Part shown: positions 7,446 to 63,167 of the stretch, piece by piece
How the letters are laid out: the number at the start of each line of letters is the position of its first letter
Numbering within the stretch: the first letter of the stretch is position 1
NCBI GenBank assembly: GCA_019192445.1
Contig: JAHCMK010000001.1
Location: 310,001-374,000, forward strand
Direction: 5' to 3'
Source of the DNA: Oceanococcus sp. HetDA_MAG_MS8
GTDB lineage: Bacteria; Pseudomonadota; Gammaproteobacteria; Nevskiales; Oceanococcaceae
DNA length: 64,000 nucleotides
Translations under genes and position numbers: made by a program
Notes under the pieces: generated by a model
Database searches by the model: none
The model's input: only the letters and a program-made list of their open reading frames with translations
Told to the model about the DNA's origin: nothing

Positions 7446-7987
7446 ATGAAGCTGGACGCGGTCCTTTAGCGGGTCCAGTGGTGGCCGCCGCCGTCATTCT
7501 TGCCGAGCCCATTACAGGCTTGAATGACTCCAAAAAACTCAGCCCTAAGCGCCGAGATGAGCTCGCAGAACTCATTCGTGAACAGGCTCAGGCTTGGGCC
7601 ATTGCGGAGGCGAGTGCGGCTGAAATTGACGCATTGAACATTCACCATGCCACCCTGCTGGCCATGCGCAGGGCGGTAGAGGCCCTGCCGGAAATGGCTT
7701 CAGAAGCATTGGTGGATGGGCGTTTTGTGCCTAGCTTGAGCATGCCGGCGCGGGCCATAGTGGGTGGCGACGCGAAGGTCGCAGAGATCTCCGCTGCGTC
7801 AATTTTGGCGAAAACGCATCGCGATGCCATATTGGTGGGCCTAGATAGCCAATTTCCAGAATATGGCTTCGCCAAACACAAGGGATATCCCACTCCAGCT
7901 CATTTACAAGCGCTGCATCAGCATGGCCCTTGCGCGGCTCACCGACGCAGCTTTGCTCCTGTGGCGCAGGTGAGTCTCGCCCTGTGA
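7430..7987 (+). CDS. rnhB: Ribonuclease HII
   Basis: Cleaves RNA in RNA:DNA hybrids, notably single ribonucleotides misincorporated in DNA. The metal-binding motif [16 protein letters not shown] opens the protein, followed by [12 protein letters not shown] and the conserved [11 protein letters not shown] near the C-terminus. 185 aa. Overlaps lpxB at its start and dnaE at its end (GTGA), so all three appear translationally coupled. Confidence 0.95.
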
Positions 7988-10900
7988 GTACCGACTTCGT
8001 CCATTTGCGCCTGCATAGCGAATACTCCTTGTGCGACAGCATGGTGCGCATCAAGCCCGGCGTGGCTGCTGTGGCTGCAGCTGGCCAGGCCGCGGTAGGA
8101 CTCACGGATGCCGGCAACGTTTTTGCCCTCGTCAAGTTTTATCAGGCAGCTCGGAGCGTCGGCGTTAAACCCTTGGCGGGAGCCGAGGTTCGCGTGCGGA
8201 CTCCTCAGGGTCATGACCTGATCCTGCTCCTGTACTGCCGCAGCCGGGTCGGCTTGACCAGCCTGTCGAGGCTGCTCACACGCGTGCACCTTGAGGGCCG
8301 TGAGGACCCAGATAACCCGCGTCTGGAATGGTCATGGATGGCGGAGCAGGGGGCGCGCGATGACCTTGAATGCATTGTTTGCAGTGGTGATGCGCAGGCC
8401 GGAACGTGGTTGGCTGCGGCGGATCAAACCAGCCTAGAGCCATGGCTTGTTGAGTTGGCGCAGCTGTTCCCGCAGCGCTGTTGGATGGGTTTGGAGCGAC
8501 TTGGACGTGACCGTGATGAGGCCGTCGTCGCCGCTGCGGTGGAACTGGCGCTGAAATACGACTGGCCGCTGCTAGCGCTGAATCAGGTCTGTTTTCTCGG
8601 TGCGGAGGATTTTGAAGCTCATGAGGCTCGGGTCTGCATCTACCAGGGGGAGAGGCTGGACGACCCTCAGCGTCCCCGTCGCCACACGCCAGAGCAATAT
8701 CTGAAGTCTGGCGCGCAGATGCTGGAGTTGTTTGCTGACGTTCCTGAGGCTGTCCATAACACGGTGATCTTCGCCCAACGTTGTAACCTTCTGCTGCGTC
8801 TGGGCCATAACGTCTTGCCGGAGTTTCCTACGCCTCATGGGGAGTCGGCGGAGGATTATTTAGAGACTATTTCCAAGGACGGACTCGAGGAGCGCTTGGC
8901 CAAGGGCGTGTTGCACGCCAGCCGCGAAGAGTATGAACAGCGCCTGCAGCGGGAGCTGGGCGTTATCAACCAGATGGGTTTCCCCGGTTACTTCCTCATC
9001 GTGGCCGACTTTATTCGTTGGTCACGCGATAACGGCGTTCCCGTGGGTCCAGGTCGGGGCTCCGGGGCCGGAAGCCTAGTCGCCTGGGTATTGGGGATTA
9101 CCGACCTGGACCCGCTACAGTTCGACTTGCTCTTCGAGCGCTTCCTCAACCCAGAACGGGTGTCGATGCCTGACTTCGATGTGGATTTCTGCATCGAAGG
9201 TCGAGACCGGGTGATCGACTATGTCGCACAGACCTACGGTCGCGATCAGGTCTCCCAAATCATCACCTACGGCTCCATGGCCGCCAAAGCTGTGGTGCGA
9301 GACACCGGGCGGGTGTTGGGTCATGGCTACGGTTATGTGGATGGTATCGCCAGACTCATTCCGCCCACGCTGGGGATTAGCCTGAGCGAGGCCTTGAAGG
9401 AATCGGCGGAGCTGCAAAATCGGTATCAAAACGAAGAGGAGGTAACCGAACTCGTTGATACCGCTTTGAAGCTGGAGGGTCTGGCGCGCAACGCCGGAAA
9501 ACACGCCGGGGGTGTTGTCATCGCTCCGGGACCACTGACGGAGTTCTGCCCCTTATATGTGGACCCCGAAGGCCATCCAGTCACGCAGTTCGACAAGGAC
9601 GACGTTGAATCGGTCGGTTTGGTCAAGTTTGACTTCTTGGGCCTTAAAACCCTCACCGTTGTTGATCGCGCCGAAGCATTGGTCAATGCGCGGCGCGAAC
9701 GCGAAGGCTTGGAAGCGGTTGATATTCGGTATTTGGCTATCGATGATCCGGCCGTTTACGAGCTGCTGTGTTCCGGGCGAGTTACAGCCTGCTTCCAAAT
9801 CGAATCCGCTGGGATGCGTCGCTTGGTGCGTGACCTGCGTCCGGATTGCTTCGACGACATCATCTCTCTGCTGGCCCTGTTCCGCCCGGGGCCGCTGCAA
9901 ACCGGCATGGTGGAGGACTTCGTTAAACGTAAGCATGGCGAAGCCGAAATCAGTTATCCCCATCCGTCATTAGAGCCGATCCTCAAGCCCACCTACGGCG
10001 TCATCCTGTATCAGGAACAGGTGATGCAGATTGCACAGGTACTCTCCGGTTACACCCTGGGGGGCGCCGACCTGTTGCGGCGTGCCATGGGCAAGAAAAA
10101 GCCGGAGGTCATGGCCAAAGAACGTGGCAAGTTCGTGCAGGGGGCGCAGGACAATGGGGTTGACGGTCAGCTGGCGGGGCAAATTTTTGACTTGATCGAA
10201 AAATTTGCCGGCTATGGTTTCAATAAGTCACACAGTGCAGCCTATGCCTATGTGGCTTATCAGACCGCTTGGCTGAAAGTTCATTACCCCGCCGAATTTC
10301 TCTGCGCCACCTTATCCGCAGATTTGGATAACACCGAAAAGCTGGTGCCATTGATTGCGGACTGCCGAGAATGGCAGGTCCGCGTCCTGCCGCCCTGCGT
10401 GAATCACTCCGCCCTGCAATTCACGGTCCCGGCGCCCATGACCATCCGTTATGGTTTGGGGGCGCTCAAAGGCGTGGGCCGCGGCGTGGTGGAAGCACTG
10501 ATTGCCGAGCGTGAGGCCCATGGGCCATTTGCCGACATGTTTGACTTGGTCAATCGTTGTGATTTACGCAAGTTGAATAAACGCGTCTTGGAGGCTTTGA
10601 TCAAAGGCGGCGCCTTGGACAGCTTCGAGCCGAACCGCAAGACCTTGCTGAAGAATCTGGACTTGGCTGTGGGTTGGGCCGAGCAGCAGCACAGCCAGCG
10701 CGAAACTGGGCAGATCGACATCTTTGGAGGTGCGGCCGATGTGCCAGCGGCGCAGCCGCCAGCCTTGCAGGCGGCGCCGCCCATGAGCGCTGCTGACACC
10801 CTAAGGATGGAGCAGGAGGGTCTGGGGCTTTATTTGACCGTGCATCCTATGGATCCCTGGCGCCGCGAGTTTGCCCCACTGGCATCCAACAGTATTGCTG

Positions 10901-51056: not shown

Positions 51057-51090
51057 ACGTCACATAAGTGTCACAAAGCGCACTTAGTCT
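51057..51090 (+). promoter_or_regulatory. Pho-box-like direct repeat upstream of receptor/lipoprotein genes
   Basis: ACGTCACATAAGTGTCAC (51057-51074) contains two GTCACA units exactly 11 bases apart with an ATAA spacer. This matches the PhoB-box layout of two CTGTCAT-like heptamers separated by four A/T bases; the second unit fits 6 of 7. A weak -10 (TAGTCT, 51085-51090) lies at the spacing seen in PhoB-activated promoters. About 120 bases separate it from the start codon. Confidence 0.5.
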
Positions 51091-51160
51091 TCTGCGAACC
51101 GAAAGGATTTCGGGGCGGCCGCATGCTCGGGAGTAGGGGCTGAAGCCGAAGTCGCATCTC

Positions 51161-51174
51161 CGCAGCATGCTGCG
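51161..51174. repeat. 14-bp perfect palindrome before the receptor gene
   Basis: CGCAGCATGCTGCG, 36 bases upstream of the receptor ATG, in its 5' leader. Could be an operator or a small hairpin; no Shine-Dalgarno is visible nearby. Confidence 0.35.
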
Positions 51175-51210
51175 TTGTCGATCACCTAATAGTTTTTACC
51201 TGGCCATTTT

Positions 51211-54200
51211 ATGACCAACACGCTGAAGGCGATTCTTCTGGGCTTCGGCCTGATCCTCAGTTCCCAGGCATTTGCTGACGAGCTGTTGGTTTATACCTTT
51301 TTTGAAGCTCGGCCCTTCAAAGGCCTAACGGTTAAGCTGAACGAGCGGACCTTGGGCGTAACGAACGACCAGGGTAGTGTGCGTGGCAAGTTGGAGGAAG
51401 GTAGTTATACCTTGTCGGTGCTTAAGGGCGCCGCGCTGTTGGCTGAAACACAAATCATCGTCGGTGATGACGAGAGTGCAGAGGTCAGTGTTGCTTTCGC
51501 GGACTTTGACTCCGAGCCGAAGATATCCGTAGCGACCTTTGACGAAGATGGACTAGCGACGGCGCTTACAGGGTCTATTCGAGGGCTCGTGACAGATGTT
51601 GACGGCACTCCGATCGCCGGAGCTGACGTTATGCCGGCATCTGGCAGTCCTTCAACGACCACCGGTGTCGACGGGCGGTTTAGCCTGGAACTACCGCGCG
51701 GTGTTTATAACCTCGAGGTCATTCACCCCGATTTCGAAACGGCGCGGGGTGACTCCATCCGGGTCGTTGCCAACGTTGGGGTCGCTGCAACAATCCGTTT
51801 ACGTCGCAACGCGGCATTGAGCGCTGGCGGACTGACTGCGGACGACTTTGCTGACGTTGAAGAGGTTGAAGTAGTTGGTACTTTCAACCCCACTGAAGAT
51901 GCCGCTGATCTGGAGAAGTTCTCAGTTGCGATCACGGACTCCATTAGCATCGAAGATTTGCTGCGTTTCGGCGATAGTGATGTTGCTGCAGCCCTCAAGC
52001 GTATTGTTGGTGTGGCGGTCACTGGGGGTAAGTATGCAAACGTGCGAGGCCTCGATGGGCGGTACATTTCAAGCACATTGAACCGCAGCTTAATGCCTAG
52101 TACCGACCCCTTCCGTCGGGACGTGCAGCTAGATTTGTTCCCATCGCAGATTCTCGGCAGCATTGAGATCCAAAAGAGCTACACGCCTGACCTGCCAGGT
52201 GATACCACGGGCGGCATCATCGCGATGACTTCACGGGATATCCCCGAAGAAGACGTTGCGGGTATATCGATATCGTTGGGGGCTCAAAACGGGGCAACTG
52301 GTCAAGATTTGCTGACCTATGACGGCAGTAGTACCGATTACTTAACCTTTGATGACGGTTTGCGAGAGCTACCGGGTGACGTTCGAGCGAACCTGAGCAA
52401 CGGGAACTTTCAGTTTCAAATCTGCGATGTAGAGGGGCAGCCAAACTGTGTTCCTCAAGAAGAAGCGGCTAGGCTCGGCACCTTATTCCCAAATATCTAC
52501 AACACTCAAACCGAGACGGCGACGCCCAATATTGGGGCGGCCGCGAAGTACGGCCGTCGTCTTGAGAAAGAGACGGGTGAGCTGGGTTTCTACGGATCAG
52601 TCACCTATGACCAAGGGTTCGGTTCCCGGCAGAACTACACCTTTGACACGCTGGACCGACGCGGTACCTCCGACTGGGATACCTTCCGATCGAGCCTTAA
52701 TGGCTACTTCGTCGCCGGTTGGGTTTCTGACAACGGCTGGGATATCACGAGCAAAACCATCCTTCTTCGGGATGCGGAAGATCGCGCCACAATCAACGAC
52801 GGCTTCAACATCGATGATGACTTTGAAGAGGTAACGACCTTTTTGGAGTGGATCGAGCGTCAGTTCATCGGTCAGCAGTTCGAGGGCAACATCTCCTTGT
52901 TCGGCAACCACACACTGTCTGCGCGGCTGGGATACACGCAAACGCGTCGCTTTTCTCCTGATCGTCGTGAGTACCAATACCGTAATGGTGGGTTAGAGGT
53001 GTCTCGCGTTGAACGCAGCTACTCAGATCTTGTCGAGGACGGGCTTGACCTTGGGCTGGATTATCAGTGGCCGATCCAAATCAACGATTGGTGGTACAGC
53101 AACTTTCGGTTTGGTGTGCTTCTCAATAGCCGCGATAGAGACAATGAACTTGTTCGAATCGGTGTGCGGCTGCGTGATCTCAGCACGGACCTGACACAGA
53201 ATATTGAAACTCTGCTTCGTCCTGAGAACTTTGAAAACGGCACTTTTCGTCTTGACACCACCAAGACGGCACCAACGGATAGCTATTTAGCCACCCAAGA
53301 TCTATTCGCCTTGTACGCAGGTACAGAGTCCGATATTGGTTACGACTGGACTGTTGTAGCGGGGTTGCGTCTGGAACAGTTCCAGATGGACCTCGATTAT
53401 CCAAACTCGACGCGAGCATCTGATTCCGAGATTTCAGACCGCGACGACAGCGATATTTTGCCCACTGTCTCCGTTATCTACCGCTGGAGCGATGATCTTC
53501 AGTTTCGTGGTGGCTACAGCCAAACCCTCTCGCGCCCCAACATTACCGAACTTGCTGGGTCGCGATTTTTCGACCAAGAGGGTCGTGAATTTATTGGCTG
53601 CCCAGACTGCTTGAACAGTTCCATCCAGAACTTTGACCTGCGTGGTGAATATTACTTTGGCGATAAGGATTCCCTGTCCATCGCTTTGTTCCACAAGATT
53701 ATCGAAGACCCATTAGAGCGGGCGGTATCTGATGGCTCTGGCTCAGCAGTGTTCTCACTGACCTTCAGAAACGGTGTTGAAGCCACCGTGCAAGGTATTG
53801 AGATCGATGCTTCGAAGCGGGTACTCGATGGAATTGATCATGTGGTGAGCATCAGCGGGAACGTCTCATTCATTGAGTCGGAAATCGAACTCGCAGGTCG
53901 TGGAGCCACGCTAGAAGGCATTCGGTTTCGTGAACTCCAGGGACAGTCCCCATTCTTGGCGAACTTCCAGGTGGCCTATGACAACTACGCCTGGGACTCC
54001 ACATTCACCTTTGTTGCTAACTATTTCGATGATCGAATCGACGCGGTCGATCGGGCGCCAGCTGGGCCTATTGTTGAAACAGGGCGCTTGGATATCAACC
54101 TGAACGCGGAAAAGAATTTTCGCGATGGCTCCTCTTTGAGCTTTCGGGTGCGCAACCTCCTAAACGTCGATATCGAGCGGGTCCAAGCCGGGCGCGCTTA

Positions 54201-54255
54201 TGAGCGGTTTAATCTCGGGACGGAGTTCTCCCTGGGTTACTCGCGTGAGTTTTAA
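51211..54255 (+). CDS. TonB-dependent receptor with carboxypeptidase-regulatory-like N-terminal domains
   Basis: 1014 aa. Signal peptide (to SSQAFA), a first small beta-sandwich (about 25-95, VKLNERTLGVTNDQGSV), and a second typical carboxypeptidase-regulatory-like domain (about 120-195, GLVTDVDGTPIAGADV). A TonB-box-like VEEVEVVGTF leads into the plug (about 225-350, including KYANVRGLDGRYISSTLN and PGDTTGGIIAMTSRD); a barrel ends in F. The plug resembles large-substrate receptors that pair with surface lipoproteins. The lipoprotein gene follows 39 bases later and a TonB2-type energiser next, suggesting one uptake system, possibly PhoB-controlled. Confidence 0.92.
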   Translation: MTNTLKAILLGFGLILSSQAFADELLVYTFFEARPFKGLTVKLNERTLGVTNDQGSVRGKLEEGSYTLSVLKGAALLAETQIIVGDDESAEVSVAFADFDSEPKISVATFDEDGLATALTGSIRGLVTDVDGTPIAGADVMPASGSPSTTTGVDGRFSLELPRGVYNLEVIHPDFETARGDSIRVVANVGVAATIRLRRNAALSAGGLTADDFADVEEVEVVGTFNPTEDAADLEKFSVAITDSISIEDLLRFGDSDVAAALKRIVGVAVTGGKYANVRGLDGRYISSTLNRSLMPSTDPFRRDVQLDLFPSQILGSIEIQKSYTPDLPGDTTGGIIAMTSRDIPEEDVAGISISLGAQNGATGQDLLTYDGSSTDYLTFDDGLRELPGDVRANLSNGNFQFQICDVEGQPNCVPQEEAARLGTLFPNIYNTQTETATPNIGAAAKYGRRLEKETGELGFYGSVTYDQGFGSRQNYTFDTLDRRGTSDWDTFRSSLNGYFVAGWVSDNGWDITSKTILLRDAEDRATINDGFNIDDDFEEVTTFLEWIERQFIGQQFEGNISLFGNHTLSARLGYTQTRRFSPDRREYQYRNGGLEVSRVERSYSDLVEDGLDLGLDYQWPIQINDWWYSNFRFGVLLNSRDRDNELVRIGVRLRDLSTDLTQNIETLLRPENFENGTFRLDTTKTAPTDSYLATQDLFALYAGTESDIGYDWTVVAGLRLEQFQMDLDYPNSTRASDSEISDRDDSDILPTVSVIYRWSDDLQFRGGYSQTLSRPNITELAGSRFFDQEGREFIGCPDCLNSSIQNFDLRGEYYFGDKDSLSIALFHKIIEDPLERAVSDGSGSAVFSLTFRNGVEATVQGIEIDASKRVLDGIDHVVSISGNVSFIESEIELAGRGATLEGIRFRELQGQSPFLANFQVAYDNYAWDSTFTFVANYFDDRIDAVDRAPAGPIVETGRLDINLNAEKNFRDGSSLSFRVRNLLNVDIERVQAGRAYERFNLGTEFSLGYSREF

Positions 54256-54294
54256 GTTTCTTTTTTGCCAACACTCTGAAGAGAGGTAATCAAC

Positions 54295-55776
54295 ATGCAA
54301 CGGTATACCCATGCATTGCTCGCAAGCGCTGTAGCCGCTGGCCTAGTGGCCTGCGGTGGAAGCAGCGGTAGTAACTCGTCTGCTAACCCCAGCCCGACGC
54401 CGACTGCCGCTCCTACGGCAACGCCAGCGCCAACCGCTACTCCAACACCAGCGCCTACGCCGGCACCGACGGCGTGTTCTGAGAGCTTCGTCAACTGCTC
54501 TGGAAACACGGCCTTCCTCGTCGGCACCATCGACAAGGACTTTACGCTGACCGCGGGCGTGAACTGGGTCATCTCCGGTACGGTGACCGTCGGTGAGGGC
54601 AACGAGCCTATTGCCGATAACGACGAGGCACAGGCACTAAAAGACAACGGTGTCACCCTCACCGTAGAGCCCGGCACAGATGTCCGTGCCACCGGTAACG
54701 GTATTCTGGTGGTGACCCGTGGTTCCAAGATGAACGCCGCCGGTACCCGTGAAAACCCCATTACCTTCAGCAGCGTCGACGAAGATTTCGATGGTCTGTC
54801 TGAGTGGGGTGGTGTTGTTCTTCAAGGCTTTGCACTGCAATTCGGCGCAGGTGGCACCGGCCCTTGTAACCAGCCTGGTGACACCTTCTGTAACCTCGCT
54901 GGCGAAGGCGGTGTTGGTTTCTTCGGTGGTACCGACGATGCCGATAACAGCGGAATCATCCGTTACGTTCGTATTGCAGAGGGTGGTCTTGTTGCTGGTC
55001 CTGCTGATGAAGTGAACGGACTCACCCTGCAGGGTGTGGGTCACGGCACCACCATCGAGTACGTCCAAGTTCACAACAATCTGGACGATGGCGTGGAATG
55101 GTTCGGTGGCACCGTGAACGCGAAGTACCTGGTGCTGACCGGTAACGATGACGATGACATCGACTTCGACGAAGGTTGGCGCGGTAACGTGCAGTACGCC
55201 ATCGTTGCTAAGAGCCCCAATGCCAGCCCTGTCGGCGGTAACGATCCTCGCGGCATCGAAGCGAACAGCTCCGATGAAGATTACGTTGAAGAAACCAACG
55301 GTGCACTGGCCAACATCACCATCATTGGTAACAACGTAAACAACTTCGATGGTGGTGAGCCCGGCATGCGTCTGCGTGGTGCATTGACCGTCGCGATCTA
55401 CAACACTGCGGTTACCGACTTCGACCGCGGCTGTGTTCGCATCGACGATGCAGATACTCCGGACGGCACTTTCTTCTCCGATGTGTCTTTCACCAATGTG
55501 TTCGGTAGCTGTGTGGGTGGCTTCTACGAGCCTAACCGCGATGGTCCTGCAGACCCTGAAGTGAACTCTGGCGCGCAAGCCATCTCCTTCGATAGTGCGC
55601 TTGCTATTACGGAGTCGTTTGCTGAACTTGGTGCTGCTACCGCAATTCCGGCTGTCGACAATGGATCTGGTTTTGCATTCGACGCTACTGACTACGTCGG
55701 TGCAGTCGAGCCAGGTACAGCTGAGGCAGATGCTTGGTGGAACGGCTGGATCATTCCTGGGTCCTTGCCGCAATAA
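54295..55776 (+). CDS. Lipoprotein with predicted right-handed beta-helix
   Basis: 493 aa. Lipobox LVACGG at residue ~20, a Pro/Thr/Ala linker (about 35-65), then repeated short beta-strand turns such as ISGTVTVGEG, LTVEPGTDVRA, ILVVTRGSKMNAAGT, IEYVQVHNNLDDGVEWFGG and Asp-rich turns (GNDDDDIDFDEGW), typical of a parallel beta-helix. Two Cys pairs occur. Similar lipoproteins accompany TonB receptors in other bacteria and could capture substrate at the surface. No enzyme motif recognised. RBS AGAGG; followed by a terminator. Confidence 0.78.
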   Translation: MQRYTHALLASAVAAGLVACGGSSGSNSSANPSPTPTAAPTATPAPTATPTPAPTPAPTACSESFVNCSGNTAFLVGTIDKDFTLTAGVNWVISGTVTVGEGNEPIADNDEAQALKDNGVTLTVEPGTDVRATGNGILVVTRGSKMNAAGTRENPITFSSVDEDFDGLSEWGGVVLQGFALQFGAGGTGPCNQPGDTFCNLAGEGGVGFFGGTDDADNSGIIRYVRIAEGGLVAGPADEVNGLTLQGVGHGTTIEYVQVHNNLDDGVEWFGGTVNAKYLVLTGNDDDDIDFDEGWRGNVQYAIVAKSPNASPVGGNDPRGIEANSSDEDYVEETNGALANITIIGNNVNNFDGGEPGMRLRGALTVAIYNTAVTDFDRGCVRIDDADTPDGTFFSDVSFTNVFGSCVGGFYEPNRDGPADPEVNSGAQAISFDSALAITESFAELGAATAIPAVDNGSGFAFDATDYVGAVEPGTAEADAWWNGWIIPGSLPQ

Positions 55777-55801
55777 GCGAGCTTAAGTAGCTCAACTGAA
55801 G

Positions 55802-55838
55802 TGCGGCGGCTCCCTTGATGGAGTCGCCGCATTCTTTC
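55802..55838 (+). terminator. Intrinsic terminator after the beta-helix lipoprotein gene
   Basis: 12-bp stem (55802-55813 with 55820-55831, one G-T pair), six-base loop CTTGAT, then TTCTTTC. Separates the receptor/lipoprotein unit from the energiser operon; some read-through is possible since the T-tract is broken. Confidence 0.8.
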
Positions 55839-55859
55839 ATTCGATTGGATATGCAAGTC

Positions 55860-56642
55860 ATGAACTCGCTGCTCTCTTTGCTGCGCCCTGGCGCGGTACT
55901 CCTCGCCGCTGGTATGGGGCTCAGTGCTACTGTCCACGCCCAAAATCTCGATAAAGTTATTGAGGAAGGCCAGCAAAAAGTGCAGGCCAACCGTGAGTCC
56001 CAAGAACGTGTCAACGATCTTGTGGCCGAGAAACAACAGAAGCTTGTTCGTTACCGGGCTCTGCTGAAGCAGATTGAAGGCCTGGAGCAATACAACACAC
56101 AGCTTCGCACCCAAATTCAGGGTCAAGAGGCGTTAATCACGCGTTTTGACCGCTCCATCGCGGAAGTGGCGACCATTGAGCGCCAAATGCTTCCGCTGAT
56201 TCACCGCATGGCAGACAGTCTGGCTGCTTACGTGGATCTTGACCTGCCGTTCCATGAGGCCGAGCGCTTGGAGCGCTTGGAGTTCATCAACAAGTCGGTG
56301 AATCGAGCCGACCTAGATATTGGCGAGAAGTTTCGCCAGGTGATCGAGGCTTACCAGGTCGAAAGTGAGTACGGCCGCAAAATCGATACCTATACCGACA
56401 TCGTGACCATTGATGGGCGTGAAGTTGAGGTCGATATTCTGCGCTTTGGTCGTATCGCGCTGGTCGCCCAAAGCAAAGACACGGCGACCACCGCGGTGTG
56501 GAATCAGGACCAAAAGTCTTGGCAAAAGCTCGATACCGGAACTTATCGGAACAGCATTCGTAAAGGGATTCTGATGGCCAAGAAGCAGGCCTCCATTGAC
56601 CTTATTACCCTTCCCATCGCCGCACCGGAGGTGGCCCAATGA
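55860..56642 (+). CDS. DUF3450 periplasmic coiled-coil protein of TonB2-type system
   Basis: About 260 aa. Signal peptide (MNSLLSLLRPG to TVHA), a long coiled coil (about 25-105), and the DUF3450 pattern QMLPLIHRMADSLAAYV followed by KFRQVIEAYQVESEYGRKIDTY. DUF3450 genes lead TonB2 operons in many marine and soil gammaproteobacteria; the molecular role is poorly defined. ATG 55860 begins the signal peptide; 55851 is an alternative. The stop overlaps the next gene as ATGA. Confidence 0.88.
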   Translation: MNSLLSLLRPGAVLLAAGMGLSATVHAQNLDKVIEEGQQKVQANRESQERVNDLVAEKQQKLVRYRALLKQIEGLEQYNTQLRTQIQGQEALITRFDRSIAEVATIERQMLPLIHRMADSLAAYVDLDLPFHEAERLERLEFINKSVNRADLDIGEKFRQVIEAYQVESEYGRKIDTYTDIVTIDGREVEVDILRFGRIALVAQSKDTATTAVWNQDQKSWQKLDTGTYRNSIRKGILMAKKQASIDLITLPIAAPEVAQ

Positions 56643-57997
56643 CTGCGTCGATGATGAAGAAAGCTGCCGTTGTGGCCTTAGGCCTAGGTGCCGTGTTGCC
56701 TTTAGGCCTTGGTGCGGAAGAGCCTGTATCCATGGACGCGTTGCTGCAAGAGGTGCGTCAAGGTCGCTTGCAAGATGCTGCTGAGAACGCAGAGCGCGAG
56801 GCCAAATTTGAGCAAAACGTTGCCCAGCAGGATGCGCTTATTGCTCAGGCAGAAGCACGGATTGCTGAGCTGGAAGCCGTCAGCGCCGAGCTTGAAGAAA
56901 CCTTCAACGCCAATGAGCTTTTGGTTGAGGAAAAGCGGACCCAGCGGAACGACCGGCTGGGATCGCTTAAAGAGCTGTTTGGACATCTCACATCTGGTGC
57001 TGGGGATCTGCGTGCGCGCTTGGACGTATCGCTGACATCCAGCCAGTTCTCGGGACGTCAGGAGTTCCTCGACGCCCTGATTGCCAAGATGAACGATGAC
57101 ACCGATCTTCCCTCCGTCGAGGAAATCGAGTCGCTCTGGTTTGAACTGCATCGTGAGATGACAGAGACCGGACGGATTGTGAAGTACAACACCAAGGTGG
57201 GTACTGAGCCCAGCCGCGAAGTGGTTCGCGTAGGTGTGTTTAACTTGGTATCCAACGGTGAATATCTGAGCTACGACGGTGCGACCGACACCACTTCGGT
57301 GCTCCCCCGTCAGCCCGAGGCTTACACCAGCGGCGCACGTAAGCTGCAAAACGCACAAGATGGGTTTGTGGCCTTAGGTGTAGATCCAACCGGTGCTTCT
57401 GGTGGTGGCTACCTCCGCGCGCTCATCAACAACCCCACACTCATTGAACGCTGGCATCAAGGCAAGCTGGTTGGCTACGTGATTACCGTTGTTGGGCTGA
57501 TTGGTTTGCTCATTGCGGCTTGGCGTTTCGTTGCTCTGGCGCAGATTGAGTCCAAGGTTCGTCGTCAGCGAAATAGCGACACCCTAAGCTTAGATAACCC
57601 ATTGGGGCGCGTGTTGAAAGTCGGTCAGGACAATGCCACCGACGACATTGAGACGCTAGAGGTGAAGCTGGGTGAAGCCATTATTAAAGAGCGCCCGCAG
57701 ATCCAGAAAGGGCTACCCATCATCAAGATCATTTCCATGGTGGCGCCGCTCATGGGACTGCTTGGTACGGTCACCGGGATGATTATTGTGTTCCAAGCCA
57801 TCACCATTTATGGCGCTGGCGATCCCAAGGCAATGGCGGGTGGTATCTCCAGTGCGCTGGTGACTACCGTGTTGGGCTTGGTCGTAGCCATTCCCATGTT
57901 GCTCTGCCATACCTTGTTGTTCACGCGGTCGCGGTCGATTCTGCAAATTATTGAAGAGCAGACGGCAGGGATTGTGGCGCAACGGGTTGGCCGCTAA
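56639..57997 (+). CDS. TtpC-like MotA/TolQ/ExbB proton-channel protein
   Basis: 452 aa. Signal peptide (to LGAEE), a long periplasmic coiled-coil region (about 30-260), a membrane helix near 280, and a C-terminal MotA/TolQ/ExbB domain (about 310-445) with KIISMVAPLMGLLGTVTGM and ALVTTVLGLVVAIPMLL. The architecture matches TtpC, which Vibrio TonB2 systems need in addition to ExbB2/ExbD2. Overlaps the DUF3450 gene; precedes exbB by 22 bases. Confidence 0.9.
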   Translation: MTASMMKKAAVVALGLGAVLPLGLGAEEPVSMDALLQEVRQGRLQDAAENAEREAKFEQNVAQQDALIAQAEARIAELEAVSAELEETFNANELLVEEKRTQRNDRLGSLKELFGHLTSGAGDLRARLDVSLTSSQFSGRQEFLDALIAKMNDDTDLPSVEEIESLWFELHREMTETGRIVKYNTKVGTEPSREVVRVGVFNLVSNGEYLSYDGATDTTSVLPRQPEAYTSGARKLQNAQDGFVALGVDPTGASGGGYLRALINNPTLIERWHQGKLVGYVITVVGLIGLLIAAWRFVALAQIESKVRRQRNSDTLSLDNPLGRVLKVGQDNATDDIETLEVKLGEAIIKERPQIQKGLPIIKIISMVAPLMGLLGTVTGMIIVFQAITIYGAGDPKAMAGGISSALVTTVLGLVVAIPMLLCHTLLFTRSRSILQIIEEQTAGIVAQRVGR

Positions 57998-58019
57998 AGC
58001 CGCTTAGGAGCAGCAGAGC

Positions 58020-58574
58020 ATGTTGATATTTCTGCTCGATGCACAGGAGGCCATCCGCGACTTTTTTGGCGCGGGTGGTCCTATCCTGCTGCTGATTGCA
58101 CTGCTCACATTCATCATGTGGATGATCATTCTGGAGCGGTCTGTCTACCTACAGCGCCCCTTCAAGAGTGAATTGGCCGACGCTGTGCAGGCTTTTGAGT
58201 CGCGTAAAGACCGTTACTCCTGGTATGGCGACGCGGTGCGGCGAATGTACGTGTCTGAGTTGCGAGTTGCCGTTAACCGCAACTTGAAGCTCATCAAAGT
58301 ACTCATCGCTCTGTGTCCGTTGTTTGGCCTGCTGGGCACGGTCACCGGCATGATTGAAGTGTTTACGGTGTTGTCGATTACGGGTGGTGGAGATGCGCGT
58401 TCCATGGCGGGCGGCGTCTCTCGAGCCACGATTCCCACCATGGCTGGAATGGTGGCCGCGCTGAGTGGCGTATTCGGCAATACCTATGTGGATCGTATGG
58501 TGACCCGCCGTCGGGCCCGTATCGAAGCCGCACTCCCCCGACACCACCTCGAGCCTGTAGCTCAGGAGTCTTAA
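58020..58574 (+). CDS. exbB: ExbB-like proton channel subunit
   Basis: 184 aa. Three membrane segments; the MotA/TolQ/ExbB signature is ALCPLFGLLGTVTGMIEVF followed by AGGVSRATIPTMAGMVAALSG. Forms the proton channel that powers TonB. TAGGAG lies nine bases before the ATG. Next to exbD by three bases, so tightly co-transcribed. Confidence 0.93.
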   Translation: MLIFLLDAQEAIRDFFGAGGPILLLIALLTFIMWMIILERSVYLQRPFKSELADAVQAFESRKDRYSWYGDAVRRMYVSELRVAVNRNLKLIKVLIALCPLFGLLGTVTGMIEVFTVLSITGGGDARSMAGGVSRATIPTMAGMVAALSGVFGNTYVDRMVTRRRARIEAALPRHHLEPVAQES

Positions 58575-58577
58575 GTT

Positions 58578-58985
58578 ATGGCCCGTTATTTAGTTAGTCA
58601 GGAAGAACCAGAAGAAGAGGGTGCAGTCGACCTCACGCCCATGTTGGATGTGGTGTTCATTATGCTCATCTTCTTCATTGTGACGGCCAGCTTTATTAAA
58701 GAAGCAGGCGTAGAGGTGAATCGTCCACAAGCCAACACGGCGGAGAATAAGAACGCTTCGGTACTGGTGGCCATCAACGCCGACAATTCCATCTACATGG
58801 ACGGTCGCCGCATTGATGTGCGAGCTGTACGCGCCAACATTGAGCGTATGCATGCCGAGAATCCGGAAGGTTCGGTGATTATCCAGGCCGATGAACTGGC
58901 CTCGGTGAAAACCTTTACCGAAGTGCTTGATGCAGCCCGCCAAGTGGTCCCTCCCGAGCGCGTGTCCTTAGCGACACAGCAGTAA
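58578..58985 (+). CDS. exbD: ExbD-like proton channel subunit
   Basis: 135 aa. Short cytosolic start, one membrane helix with the essential Asp in VDLTPMLDVVFIMLIFF (about 20-40), then a small periplasmic domain. Partner of ExbB; proton flow through the pair is passed to TonB. Confidence 0.93.
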   Translation: MARYLVSQEEPEEEGAVDLTPMLDVVFIMLIFFIVTASFIKEAGVEVNRPQANTAENKNASVLVAINADNSIYMDGRRIDVRAVRANIERMHAENPEGSVIIQADELASVKTFTEVLDAARQVVPPERVSLATQQ

Positions 58986-59003
58986 TACAAGGGAGTTGCT
59001 GAC

Positions 59004-59603
59004 ATGCGCATGATGATGGTTCTGGTACCCGCGGCCCTTATCACCTTCAGTCTACAGATGGTGATGGTGTCATTGATCACATTTGCTGATCGTGAGCTTG
59101 ATAAGACCCCGCCGATCAAATTGCCTGAAATTGGCATGCCCGAGATCGAGATCAAGACGCAAAAGGCCGTTGAAAAGCCTGAGAAGCCGGAGCTCGACGA
59201 TACTCCTCCGCCCGAGGTTCCTGAGCAGGCCTTCGACAACATTGATGGCTCAGCAACCGTCGGCAACCTTGGGGCAGGTGATCTAGTCGCGGGTCTAGAC
59301 CTGAGTATTGGTGCTGGGATTTCGGCCTCGGACGGCGAGTACCTGCCTATCGTGAAGGTGGCGCCGCAGTATCCGCGCCAAGCTCTGAAGCGCAAGCTAG
59401 AGGGTGACGTGGTGTTGGAGTACACGGTGTCGACCAATGGTTCTGTCAAGAACCCGAAAGTGCTGTTCAGTACTGATCCTGTCTTTAACAAGGCCGCTAT
59501 GCAGTCGGCTCTTCGCTACAAGTACAAGCCTCGGGTTGTGGATGGACAGGCTTTGGAAGTTCCGGGTGTTCGCACTCGCATCAAGTTCCGCTTAGGAAGC
59601 TGA
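59004..59603 (+). CDS. tonB: TonB-family energy transducer
   Basis: 199 aa. An N-terminal membrane helix (about 4-26), a charged Pro/Lys/Glu linker (about 35-80) and a C-terminal TonB domain with the YP motif region APQYPRQALKRKLEGDVV near residue 118. Spans the periplasm to energise outer-membrane receptors. Short linker, as in TonB2 proteins. Presumably serves the receptor at 51.2 kb and perhaps the ZnuD-like one at 63.2 kb. Confidence 0.92.
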   Translation: MRMMMVLVPAALITFSLQMVMVSLITFADRELDKTPPIKLPEIGMPEIEIKTQKAVEKPEKPELDDTPPPEVPEQAFDNIDGSATVGNLGAGDLVAGLDLSIGAGISASDGEYLPIVKVAPQYPRQALKRKLEGDVVLEYTVSTNGSVKNPKVLFSTDPVFNKAAMQSALRYKYKPRVVDGQALEVPGVRTRIKFRLGS

Positions 59604-59609
59604 TCTCAG

Positions 59610-60950
59610 ATGAAGAAACAATCTGGCGACAAAGCCTTGCGGCAGTTCTTAGCTCAGCTGTTGTTCTGCCTGCCATTGCTGGCAGCTGCCTTATGGTTGA
59701 GCCCGGTCCAGGCGCAAGGTGCTTTGGACCCGAAGACATTTGACCAGCTCAGCAAGGCCCAGCGCCTGGCTGCGGAGGGTAACCATGACGACGCCATATA
59801 CATTTTGGATCGCCTGCGCGATCGCGGGCGTCTCAATAGTTATGCGCGTTCGCAGTTGTGGAACTTTTATGCCTTCATCAATGCTAGTCGAGAAGAGTTT
59901 CAGACCGCTATCGACTACTACTACAAGGTTTTAGACGAAGAGGACGTTCCTGAAGGCCTAGTGCTCACTGCCAAGTACACCATTGGCCAACTGTATTTCC
60001 AACTCGAAAATTACGACGAATGCATTCGTTTCATCGAGGACTGGCTGAGTACGGCTGAGAAGTCCACGCCAACCGCACACATCATGTTGGCTCAGGCTTA
60101 CTACCAGAAGCAGGATATGGATAAAGCCCTGCTGAACGTCAATCAGGCCATTGACTTACAGCGGGCCGAAAACAAAAAAATTCAGGAAGGATGGCTACGC
60201 CTTAAAGCGGTTTTGCATTACACCGACAAAGACTATGCGGCGACCGCGGAAGTCTACGAAGAGTTGGTGAGTAATTACCCGAAGAGCTCCTACATGAAGC
60301 AGCTTGCTGGCATGTACTCCGAGCTCGGGCGGGATGAGGAGCGCTTGGCGATCTTCGACGCTGTCTACCAACATGGTGACCTCAAAACCGAAAACGATGT
60401 ACTGAACCTCGCTTATATGTGGCTAGGTGGCGCCGTTCCGTACAAAGCGGGTCGCATTATCGAAGACGGTATTGCTACTGGCACCATCGAAGAGTCTGAA
60501 AAGAACATTCAGACCCTGGCCAATGCTTGGGCGCAGGCGAATGCTTACGATAAAGCTGTTCCGACATTGACGCGTGCTGCCGAAATCACGGGCGAAGGTA
60601 TTTTCCATGCTCGGCTCGCCGGGGTTCACTTCAATGCCGGGGAATACGATCTGGCGGCGAAGGCAGCGCAACGCGCAGCTGAGCTGGGTGGGCTGAAGAA
60701 CCGTGAGGCGAACTTCTTGTTGATGGGAATGGCTCTCTTCAACCAGCGCAAGTACGAGCCGGCCCTGCAGGCTTTCCGTCAGGCCAAACAGGACAAGTCA
60801 ACCTTCAAAGCGGCCTCTAAATGGGAAGAATACACCTTGGGGGAAATACGCCGTATCCGTCAGATTGCCCAGGCGCAGGAAGATTTGGAGCGCAGGACCC
60901 GCGAAGCTTTGGAAGCGCAAGAAAACAATCAGCGGGCACTAAGTTTTTGA
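59610..60950 (+). CDS. Exported TPR-repeat protein of the TonB2-type operon
   Basis: 446 aa. Signal peptide (hydrophobic segment to SPVQAQG) and many TPR-like helix pairs, for example QLWNFYAFINASREEF, AHIMLAQAYYQKQDMDKAL and FLLMGMALFNQRKYEPALQAFRQAK. The C-terminus is a charged helix. TPR proteins close TonB2 operons in related bacteria; its role (assembly or receptor contact) is not known. Followed by a strong terminator. Confidence 0.88.
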   Translation: MKKQSGDKALRQFLAQLLFCLPLLAAALWLSPVQAQGALDPKTFDQLSKAQRLAAEGNHDDAIYILDRLRDRGRLNSYARSQLWNFYAFINASREEFQTAIDYYYKVLDEEDVPEGLVLTAKYTIGQLYFQLENYDECIRFIEDWLSTAEKSTPTAHIMLAQAYYQKQDMDKALLNVNQAIDLQRAENKKIQEGWLRLKAVLHYTDKDYAATAEVYEELVSNYPKSSYMKQLAGMYSELGRDEERLAIFDAVYQHGDLKTENDVLNLAYMWLGGAVPYKAGRIIEDGIATGTIEESEKNIQTLANAWAQANAYDKAVPTLTRAAEITGEGIFHARLAGVHFNAGEYDLAAKAAQRAAELGGLKNREANFLLMGMALFNQRKYEPALQAFRQAKQDKSTFKAASKWEEYTLGEIRRIRQIAQAQEDLERRTREALEAQENNQRALSF

Positions 60951-60985
60951 TTGGCTTTGCCTTAGTCTTAAATTCAGGCATGAGA

Positions 60986-61012
60986 AAAAGGGGCTATTAG
61001 CCCCTTTTTTTC
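60986..61012 (+). terminator. Intrinsic terminator ending the TonB2-type operon
   Basis: AAAAGGGGCT (60986-60995) pairs with 60999-61008 around an ATT loop, followed by a T-run. Strong rho-independent terminator. Confidence 0.93.
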
Positions 61013-61765: not shown

Positions 61766-61976
61766 CGGCAGAGCGTTACCAAAGATGCTGACTGCTTTTT
61801 TGCGGTGCACACGCACCCTCCACTACTCGCTGGACTGGTTCTGACAGCGCCAACCGCGATCCAGTCTGCTCCGCCGCTGGCTTCATTTTCTACATCGTAT
61901 GCCGGGCCGGCGCCCGGCTCCCTACTGTTGTTCGGCTGTTCCTGAAGCAGCCTTCCTAAAAGAGGCTCGAGAACTC

Positions 61977-63167
61977 ATGATATTGAATAGAATCGCGGTA
62001 CTCCCCGCCTTGATTGGTTCCGCAGTGTTACTGACGGCCTGTGGCGGCTCTGGTGGTGGCTCTGACGGCGACCCCAACACCTTGGATATTGGCTTGCCCG
62101 GTGGCCAAAAACTCGCGTTTCTGAACTCTGCAACCAGTGACTATCACAGTTACGACACAAGCAGCTACGCCATCACGGATTTGAACCTCGCCGCGCGCAC
62201 TAGCGAAGATGGCGACGTACAAAGCATGTTGATCGAAGATACCTCCACTATTGGGCACTTTTTGCACTTTCCAGACCTTCGTGGGTCTGGTGAAGATGCC
62301 TCGATCTCAAACTGGTTCGCGCTGATGAAGCCCAGCTATGTTCCGGGGTCACCTATCGATGCCGATCAGTTTGTAAAGCTTGTTCACTTGCATGACGATG
62401 AACTCGCAGCGCACTCGTCTGATGAATACGTAGATCTCGAAGAGGGAAGCCAACGCGCTGAGTTCCTGGAGAGGTTGAACGCCTTTGTTCTTGAGCAGAA
62501 CGACCTGAACCAAGAAGTGGTAGAGGCATTGTCTGCGGAAGGACAAACGCTTTGCCGCGCTTATGTAGACCCTTATGTGAAGAACGGCGTTGAAGGCGGT
62601 GACGGTCACGACCATGATCATGATCACGACGGGGACGACCACGATCATGACGGGGATGATCACGATCATGACGGGGATGATCACGATCATGACGGGGATG
62701 ATCACGATCATGATGGGGATGATCACGCTCATGAGCATGGTGAGTTAGTCCACTTCGGCCTGACCGATTCTGGCCGCGTCTACTTCTTCCACGAAGAAGA
62801 AGATGGCCTCGAATCCTTCCAAGGTTTCGTTACTCTGAGTGGCGTGCAGAGCATCATGGACTGCGATAAAACGACCATCTCACGGATTAGTGATGAGGCG
62901 ATCTTGGTGTTTGTTCCGGTCCCTGGCAACCCCATGATTTACATGGTTGATAACCATGGTGCCGACTGGCATGAGCACGAGAGCTGGGCTGTGGCTGAGC
63001 TCAATGGCCTGACGGCTGACATGATGGCCATTCTTCCAACCTCCGCTGATCACGATCACGATCATGAGGGCGATGACCATGACCACGATGATGATCATGA
63101 CCATGACGATGATCACGATCATGATGATGACGATGATGGTCATGACGACGACGGAATGGGTTCGTAA
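61977..63167 (+). CDS. His/Asp-rich metal-binding lipoprotein
   Basis: 396 aa. Lipobox LLTACGG at residue ~20. The folded part (about 25-205 and 255-350) is interrupted by five copies of the heptad DGDDHDH (residues 218-252). A second His/Asp-rich run ends the protein (about 355-390). The repeats should bind zinc or similar ions, as in histidine-rich periplasmic metal buffers. Sits directly before a ZnuD-like receptor, so a zinc-capture role at the outer membrane is likely. ATG 61977 begins the signal peptide. Confidence 0.85.
   Translation: MILNRIAVLPALIGSAVLLTACGGSGGGSDGDPNTLDIGLPGGQKLAFLNSATSDYHSYDTSSYAITDLNLAARTSEDGDVQSMLIEDTSTIGHFLHFPDLRGSGEDASISNWFALMKPSYVPGSPIDADQFVKLVHLHDDELAAHSSDEYVDLEEGSQRAEFLERLNAFVLEQNDLNQEVVEALSAEGQTLCRAYVDPYVKNGVEGGDGHDHDHDHDGDDHDHDGDDHDHDGDDHDHDGDDHDHDGDDHAHEHGELVHFGLTDSGRVYFFHEEEDGLESFQGFVTLSGVQSIMDCDKTTISRISDEAILVFVPVPGNPMIYMVDNHGADWHEHESWAVAELNGLTADMMAILPTSADHDHDHEGDDHDHDDDHDHDDDHDHDDDDDGHDDDGMGS
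62628..62732 (+). repeat. 21-bp tandem repeats (five units) in the His-rich lipoprotein gene
   Basis: Five in-frame 21-base units, each encoding DGDDHDH; the inner units are almost identical at the DNA level, the first and last slightly changed. Recent repeat expansion or contraction would alter the number of metal-binding heptads without a frameshift. Confidence 0.93.

Follow-up and report, generated by a model that had tools for sequence, protein, structure and literature searches.

The window, a stretch of 64,000 nucleotides on the forward strand of contig JAHCMK010000001.1 (positions 310,001 to 374,000; assembly GCA_019192445.1) of Oceanococcus sp. HetDA_MAG_MS8, contains a run of eight + strand genes between 51211 and 60950. 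The source genome is a draft of 3.53 Mb in 20 contigs. Open reading frames and Pfam matches gave, in order, a receptor, a lipoprotein and then DUF3450, TtpC-like, ExbB, ExbD, TonB and TPR genes, the last six being referred to below as the energiser (Table 1). This confirmed the gene content, order and strand described in a previous reading made from the letters alone (the sequence-only reading). In the energiser, Pfam placed a MotA_ExbB domain in both the TtpC-like protein and ExbB, and found ExbD, TonB_C and TPR domains in the remaining proteins. The DUF3450 gene starts at an in-frame ATG at either 55851 or 55860, as the TTG at 55815 given in the list of open reading frames falls inside a hairpin. 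This hairpin (55800-55833), which separates the lipoprotein gene from the energiser, had been called a terminator. Its stem of 14 pairs was borne out, and the gap folded more stably than 200 of 200 shuffles (z -4.3), but its T tract is poor. A strong hairpin was present in the same gap of 13 of 13 relatives, the shuffle control applying to the window gap alone. A promoter scan upstream of the receptor returned 0 sites.

Table 1. Features of the receptor, lipoprotein and energiser locus, in window numbering
Feature	Position	Strand	Remarks
Pho-box-like direct repeat, 11-bp period	51057..51074	+	About 137-154 bases before receptor start; 11/12 match
TonB-dependent receptor, CC0171-type, 1014 aa	51211..54255	+	Pfam barrel, Plug, CarboxypepD_reg; AF2 model
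ElpS-type beta-helix lipoprotein, 493 aa	54295..55776	+	LVAC lipobox, Pro/Thr-rich linker, one predicted beta-helix domain; AF2 model
Hairpin, terminator/attenuator-like, between lipoprotein and energiser	55800..55833	+	14 pairs
DUF3450 protein (TtpB-type)	55851..56642	+	Pfam DUF3450 254.7 bits, scanned from 55854
TtpC-like protein, C-terminal MotA/ExbB domain, 452 aa	56639..57997	+	Pfam MotA_ExbB 103.1 bits, residues 319-439
ExbB	58020..58574	+	Pfam MotA_ExbB 68.6 bits
ExbD	58578..58985	+	Pfam ExbD 98 bits
TonB, 199 aa	59004..59603	+	Pfam TonB_C 60.4 bits
TPR protein (TtpD-type), 446 aa	59610..60950	+	Pfam TPR families
Terminator-like hairpin with T run, 3' of TPR gene	60982..61012	+	14-pair stem

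The receptor had been credited with two N-terminal domains. Pfam recognized one of them, a CarboxypepD_reg domain (122-197), together with the plug and the TonB-dependent receptor barrel. The AlphaFold model (AF2, pLDDT 89.5) showed N-terminal beta domains at about residues 24-111 and 120-197, followed by a low-confidence linker, the plug and the barrel; the domain at 24-111, missed by Pfam, thus supplied the other one. When compared with the PDB, the model best matched FecA (1kmo, Z 37.4, 3.2 A over 599 residues), and siderophore, cobalamin and copper receptors are among the nearest folds.

The lipoprotein matched 0 Pfam families at E<=0.01 and had no sequence relatives in the PDB (best E 0.12). 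Its AlphaFold model (pLDDT 87.7) is a parallel beta-helix, in line with the sequence-only reading, and it matched phage tailspikes, alginate epimerases, NosD and PL6 lyases with Z of 20-23; among the 50 matches listed, Z ranged from 19 to 23 and identity from 8 to 15%. The function of the lipoprotein cannot be read from this modelled fold alone. A SusD-like lipoprotein was ruled out by the predicted beta-helix and the lack of any Pfam match at the above threshold. The lipobox is followed by Gly at +2, and we infer that the protein sits on the outer-membrane surface and pairs physically with the receptor. The mature protein is strongly acidic (65 D/E vs 17 K/R). In an alignment of 66 lipoprotein homologues, ten acidic positions were unchanged (E204, D217, E239, D264, D265, E268, D286, D287, D290 and E322), several of them lying about one helix turn (22-25 residues) apart. 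These residues may form a cation site.

Next to each other in the window, the receptor and the lipoprotein also proved to be a conserved pair, which supports the partnership proposed by the sequence-only reading. Among 61 related genomes, 25 contained the receptor (E<=1e-60), in single copy each, and a lipoprotein match adjoined it in 25 of 25. A second collection of loci (L035-L059 and L095-L173) was selected via the lipoprotein match, so the presence of the lipoprotein in 105 of 105 is by construction. The receptor was present in 98 of these 105, several of the 7 misses being contig ends; L060-L068 were excluded from this count. Related loci are not independent of each other, L135 and L149 for instance belonging to one species. 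Both gene orders, receptor first and lipoprotein first, occurred among the relatives, and many related lipoproteins carry two or three beta-helix domains in tandem. They were found in gammaproteobacteria, alphaproteobacteria, deltaproteobacteria, Myxococcota, Flavobacteriales and Opitutaceae. In L060-L063, L067 and L068 we noticed LIP-like proteins some 530-650 aa long, the one in L060 having a thiolase and a sodium symporter as neighbours; these loci were omitted because a receptor of the same type was not found there.

Some relatives of the pair lie beside type II secretion (T2SS) genes. All three T2SS-type clusters were found in 12 of the 105 loci (L113, L121, L127, L130, L133, L137, L146, L158, L162, L170, L171 and L173), all of them alphaproteobacterial; window positions 40001-64000 fell in 0 of the three. 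The C and E genes were confirmed by Pfam in L133 alone, GspD and GspF being assigned from size and order. An ExbD-type gene was present in 0 of these 12 loci, as against 35 of 103 overall. Since T2SS and ExbD never occurred together in the fetched stretches, the pair appears beside either machine and not both, with taxonomy as a confounder. L133, a Phenylobacterium locus, consists of lipoprotein, receptor, T2SS C gene, a 681-aa gene that is GspD by size and order, and T2SS E gene, with a pseudopilin-type motif. Window and L133 proteins are 33% identical for the lipoprotein and 27% for the receptor. Judged by sequence, the window pair is homologous to this Phenylobacterium pair, whose gene order resembles elpS-cc0171-gspC.

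In Caulobacter crescentus, the order is cc0170 (elpS), cc0171 and gspC onward (PMC2996285). ElpS (CC0170) is a phosphate-starvation-induced surface lipoprotein of about 50 kDa whose release depends on T2SS, probably via a protease; cc0171 was reported to be constitutive, and ElpS/CC0171 homologues co-occur in genomes (PMC2996285). In the parts of this 2010 description available, the pair has no assigned substrate, and a shift from rich to poor medium is reported to have had no detectable effect on intracellular phosphate (PMC2996285). ElpS overproduction increased alkaline phosphatase in the supernatant (PMC2996285). The latter effect raises the question of whether the lipoprotein might act as an enzyme at the cell surface, or activate secreted phosphatases, instead of serving in capture, with the receptor importing breakdown products or helping to place the lipoprotein. 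Lyases, epimerases and hydrolases are numerous among the beta-helix proteins with a comparable fold, which would suit such an activity, as would the unchanged acidic residues and the T2SS genes beside the pair in the 12 loci above. Yet re-folded and immunoprecipitated ElpS showed no alkaline phosphatase activity (PMC2996285), and the window lipoprotein matches no catalytic family and is distant in identity from its fold matches. We thus regard an enzyme or activator as unlikely, though it is the alternative that we would take most seriously, and continue to view the lipoprotein as a putative capture partner.

The sequence-only reading had also proposed a phosphate-starvation signal in front of the locus. 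The repeat CGTCACATAAGTGTCAC at 51058-51074 matches the consensus TGTCAY-N5-TGTCAY at 11/12 and is the only site of at least 11/12 on either strand of the whole window. Taken alone it is weak: sites of this type (at least 11/12) numbered 26 in the source genome vs 20 for a reversed control pattern. With a weight matrix (PWM) made from E. coli sites, the repeat scored 9.7 and so fell short of the 95% level in shuffles (10.1); a higher-scoring window site (10.4) lies at 58684, inside exbD. By PWM the repeat is thus unremarkable, and the case for a Pho box rests on position and on conservation in relatives.

This conservation was pronounced. We kept 100 of 104 loci, the rest having upstream DNA cut by contig ends, and used other genes of the same loci as controls, with the 22 largest clusters excluded; L038, which is the same place as L098, was left out here and in the pho/pst neighbour counts below. 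Upstream of the pair, the highest PWM score per locus had a median of 11.9 (100 loci) vs 5.4 for 585 control genes (Mann-Whitney p 4.7e-23), and scores of at least 12 bits were obtained for 47/100 pair loci vs 45/585 control genes. On the coding strand, a consensus match of at least 10/12 preceded the pair in 66 of 100 loci vs 61 of 596 control genes (Fisher p 6e-32, kinship ignored), and one of at least 11/12 in 33 of 100 vs 17 of 596. Moreover, repeats of at least 10/12 lie before the DUF3450 gene in 17 of 24 loci (p 1.6e-11, kinship ignored), 9 of them reaching at least 11/12. No energiser repeat of at least 10/12 was found in the window, L035, L036, L040, L045, L050 or L052; in the window, the gap between lipoprotein and DUF3450 genes is short and contains the hairpin alone.

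The source genome was also searched for the motif in front of its own phosphate genes. Of 13 genes belonging to the PhoB, PhoX and PhoD families, 10 had a repeat of at least 10/12 in front, in most cases some 60-80 bases from the probable start; the remaining 3 scored 9/12, and 5 of the 13 were individually below 0.05 in shuffles. This suggests that the motif is in use in this organism. The window repeat, at about 150 bases from the start codon, lies farther out than the repeats of the PhoD/PhoX genes. No Pho box was found by PWM or consensus before the phoR-pst genes of the source genome. A tandem Pho box was seen just upstream of its PhoB gene (G000 C10:1792-1819), on a contig other than that of phoR-pst. 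We rejected a chance occurrence of the window repeat on its position and its conservation in relatives. Together with the pho/pst neighbours described below, the conservation of the repeat and the source genome's own Pho-family genes favour the proposed signal: the phosphate link of the locus is well supported by sequence, phosphate-starvation control is probable, and PhoB would presumably bind at the repeat.

A phoR-pstSCAB-phoU cluster, which contains the only PBP_like_2 (PstS-type) match of the source genome, begins 9.7 kb downstream of the TPR gene. Directly before it lies a TonB-dependent receptor gene of 792 aa (L175 7253-9631, that is, 68152-70530 in window numbering), in front of which we found no recognizable Pho box. 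Between the locus and phoR-pst, window positions 61899-63167 encode a His/Asp-rich repeat lipoprotein with a weak ZrgA zinc-uptake match, far below cut-off, and downstream of it comes a 695-aa TonB-dependent receptor (L175 2341-4428); from their sequences, these two are perhaps a zinc-type pair. Among the relatives, PhoB/PhoR/PstS/PstB/PhoU matches occurred near 18 of 103 loci, in stretches of mostly 10 kb per side and at identity cut-offs, relative to the source-genome proteins, of 50% for PhoB, 35% for PhoR, 25% for PstS, 50% for PstB and 30% for PhoU; we estimate chance overlap at about 1-2% of loci. In L048, a PhoX-family gene (7860-9176) is convergent with the lipoprotein gene.

These neighbours bear on the nature of the cargo. 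The pair might import a metal or cofactor, such as iron or calcium, for phosphate-starvation enzymes like PhoX, and not phosphorus itself. An acidic, possibly metal-binding lipoprotein fits such a role, as do the siderophore, cobalamin and copper receptors among the closest folds and the transport of siderophores by TonB2 of Vibrio vulnificus (PMC6957404). However, the substrate is not readable from the receptor fold, and among recurrent neighbour clusters with scanned representatives, pst/pho and T2SS stood out whereas metal-uptake families were absent. We therefore give metal or cofactor import a low probability, below that of a surface enzyme, and retain a phosphorus compound as the favoured cargo.

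We then asked how closely the energiser is tied to the pair. DUF3450 was found somewhere in 25 of 26 genomes checked, and the source genome has 3 DUF3450 loci over cut-off; since the family is so common, its mere presence proves little. The lineage of the window energiser, defined by TtpC identity of at least 66% (next best 50%), was more informative. Of the 61 genomes, 10 have this lineage, and every one of the 10 belongs to the 25 that carry the receptor (hypergeometric 3.6e-5, kinship ignored); it adjoins the pair in 8 and lies on another contig in 2. The energiser tree grouped the window with L035, L036, L040, L043, L045 and L046 (support 1.000). In contrast, the receptor-lipoprotein tree, in which the L122 receptor is a short piece, placed L043, L045 and L046 with L042 (support 1.000), whose energiser belongs to another lineage. 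The two trees conflict, which indicates that the partners were exchanged or re-joined in evolution and yet stayed together. Inheritance of the eight-gene locus always as one block was ruled out by the same conflict. The two other energisers of the source genome differ: their upstream repeats are no better than 8/12, and no receptor occurs among the nine flanking genes scanned. The third DUF3450 energiser (L065 5913-15750, G000 C1) lies downstream of LolA-like and MMPL-family genes and upstream of a DUF1329 gene; this context hints at a role in envelope lipids.

An ordinary TonB2 system could have come to lie beside a phosphate-regulated pair by chance, with no functional coupling. TonB2-type systems are common in such genomes, the energiser lineage is on a contig apart from the pair in 2 of 10 genomes, and 68 of 103 related loci have no ExbD-type gene in the fetched stretch, some being cut by contig ends. 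Against chance adjacency stand the lineage-specific co-occurrence in 10 of 10 genomes, the repeats before the energiser in 17 of 24 loci set beside the low scores of the other two source-genome energisers, and the repeated re-association of pair and energiser in the trees. We hold chance adjacency to be very improbable, the least probable of the alternatives considered, and a dedicated energiser, as put forward by the sequence-only reading, remains likely. Its picture of a self-contained uptake system was upheld in part: the phosphate signal, the conserved pair and the tied energiser lineage remain, but a nearby energiser is not general. The sequence-only reading had named homologous pairs without Pho boxes or TonB2 genes in close relatives as evidence against itself, and such loci do occur in part: 34 of 100 lack a repeat of at least 10/12, in addition to the 68 of 103 lacking an ExbD-type gene.

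The locus thus appears to combine an ElpS/CC0171-type pair under Pho control with a TonB2-type energiser of its own. Given the energiser, import is the likeliest role, and we think it reasonably probable that the whole module serves outer-membrane import under phosphate starvation. In low phosphate, PhoB would bind the repeat at 51057-51074 and turn on the receptor and the lipoprotein; the energiser would be expressed by read-through past the hairpin in the window and from its own Pho box in many relatives. Next to the CC0171-type receptor, the ElpS-type lipoprotein would sit at the outer membrane, where it would bind or present a phosphorus-containing substrate, perhaps via a cation held by the acidic ladder. 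TtpB-TtpC-ExbB-ExbD-TonB-TtpD would pass proton-motive force to the receptor so that the substrate enters the periplasm; there, its processing would be completed by PhoD/PhoX-type enzymes and PstSCAB. The architecture, homology, motif conservation, pst/pho neighbourhood and energiser-pair association in this scheme come from computation; the transport direction and the substrate are what the scheme would predict. The acidic composition of the lipoprotein is unlike that of a plain anion binder and counts against phosphorus capture. Also weighing against the scheme are the lack of a recognizable Pho box before phoR-pst, the modest PWM score of the window repeat and its distance from the start codon, the many loci with no ExbD-type gene nearby, and, in Caulobacter, the constitutive cc0171 and the unchanged intracellular phosphate. 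A narrower version, in which the lipoprotein, receptor and Pho-controlled energiser form a dedicated proton-driven importer for a large phosphorus substrate (nucleic acid from outside the cell, phytate or some other organophosphate, for instance), is offered tentatively and with less confidence than import in general.

To our knowledge, the outer-membrane passage of phosphorus compounds other than phosphate is poorly understood. The porins PhoE and OprP provide a diffusion route across the outer membrane, and the scheme above, if true, would add active transport of phosphorus compounds. The link to an apparently co-regulated energiser points to TonB-driven work by the pair, which lends itself to a clean deletion test. 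As related lipoproteins occur in several bacterial groups, the answer would bear on phosphorus cycling.

How does this locus compare with known systems? In SusCD- and BtuBG-type systems a receptor works with a surface lipoprotein, and SusC has a carboxypeptidase-like N-terminal domain. The window shares the receptor and lipoprotein pairing; SusD is helical and BtuG a propeller, whereas the window lipoprotein is a predicted beta-helix. With Caulobacter ElpS/CC0171, the likeness lies in an adjacent lipoprotein, of about 50 kDa, and receptor and in probable phosphate-starvation control, the tie running via the gene order of L133. The window differs in having the receptor before the lipoprotein, two extra N-terminal domains in the receptor, and an energiser operon in place of T2SS genes. 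In Caulobacter, T2SS, PstSCAB and several TonB-dependent receptors belong to the PhoB regulon (PMC11208175). The vre/hxc region of Pseudomonas aeruginosa is likewise a phosphate-starvation-linked cluster with exbB2-exbD2-tonB4, T2SS genes and a phosphatase; the passages available name neither DUF3450/TtpC/TPR proteins nor a beta-helix lipoprotein, and call TonB4 uncharacterised (PMC7035377). Our literature search on the energiser, receptor or lipoprotein with phosphate found no work joining the pair and the energiser. The closest energiser is TonB2 of V. vulnificus, TtpB-TtpC-ExbB-ExbD-TonB-TtpD, all six of which are reported to be needed for TonB-dependent transport (PMC6957404). The window has the same six components, with DUF3450 first and TPR last (PMC6957404). 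However, V. vulnificus TonB2 has a Fur site and serves siderophore transport (PMC6957404), whereas the window energiser is tied to the receptor-lipoprotein pair and is preceded in relatives by Pho-box repeats. Hence, the pair seems to be already known, as a relative of ElpS/CC0171 that the sequence-only reading missed; what seems to be new is that it is coupled to an apparently co-regulated energiser of TonB2 type.
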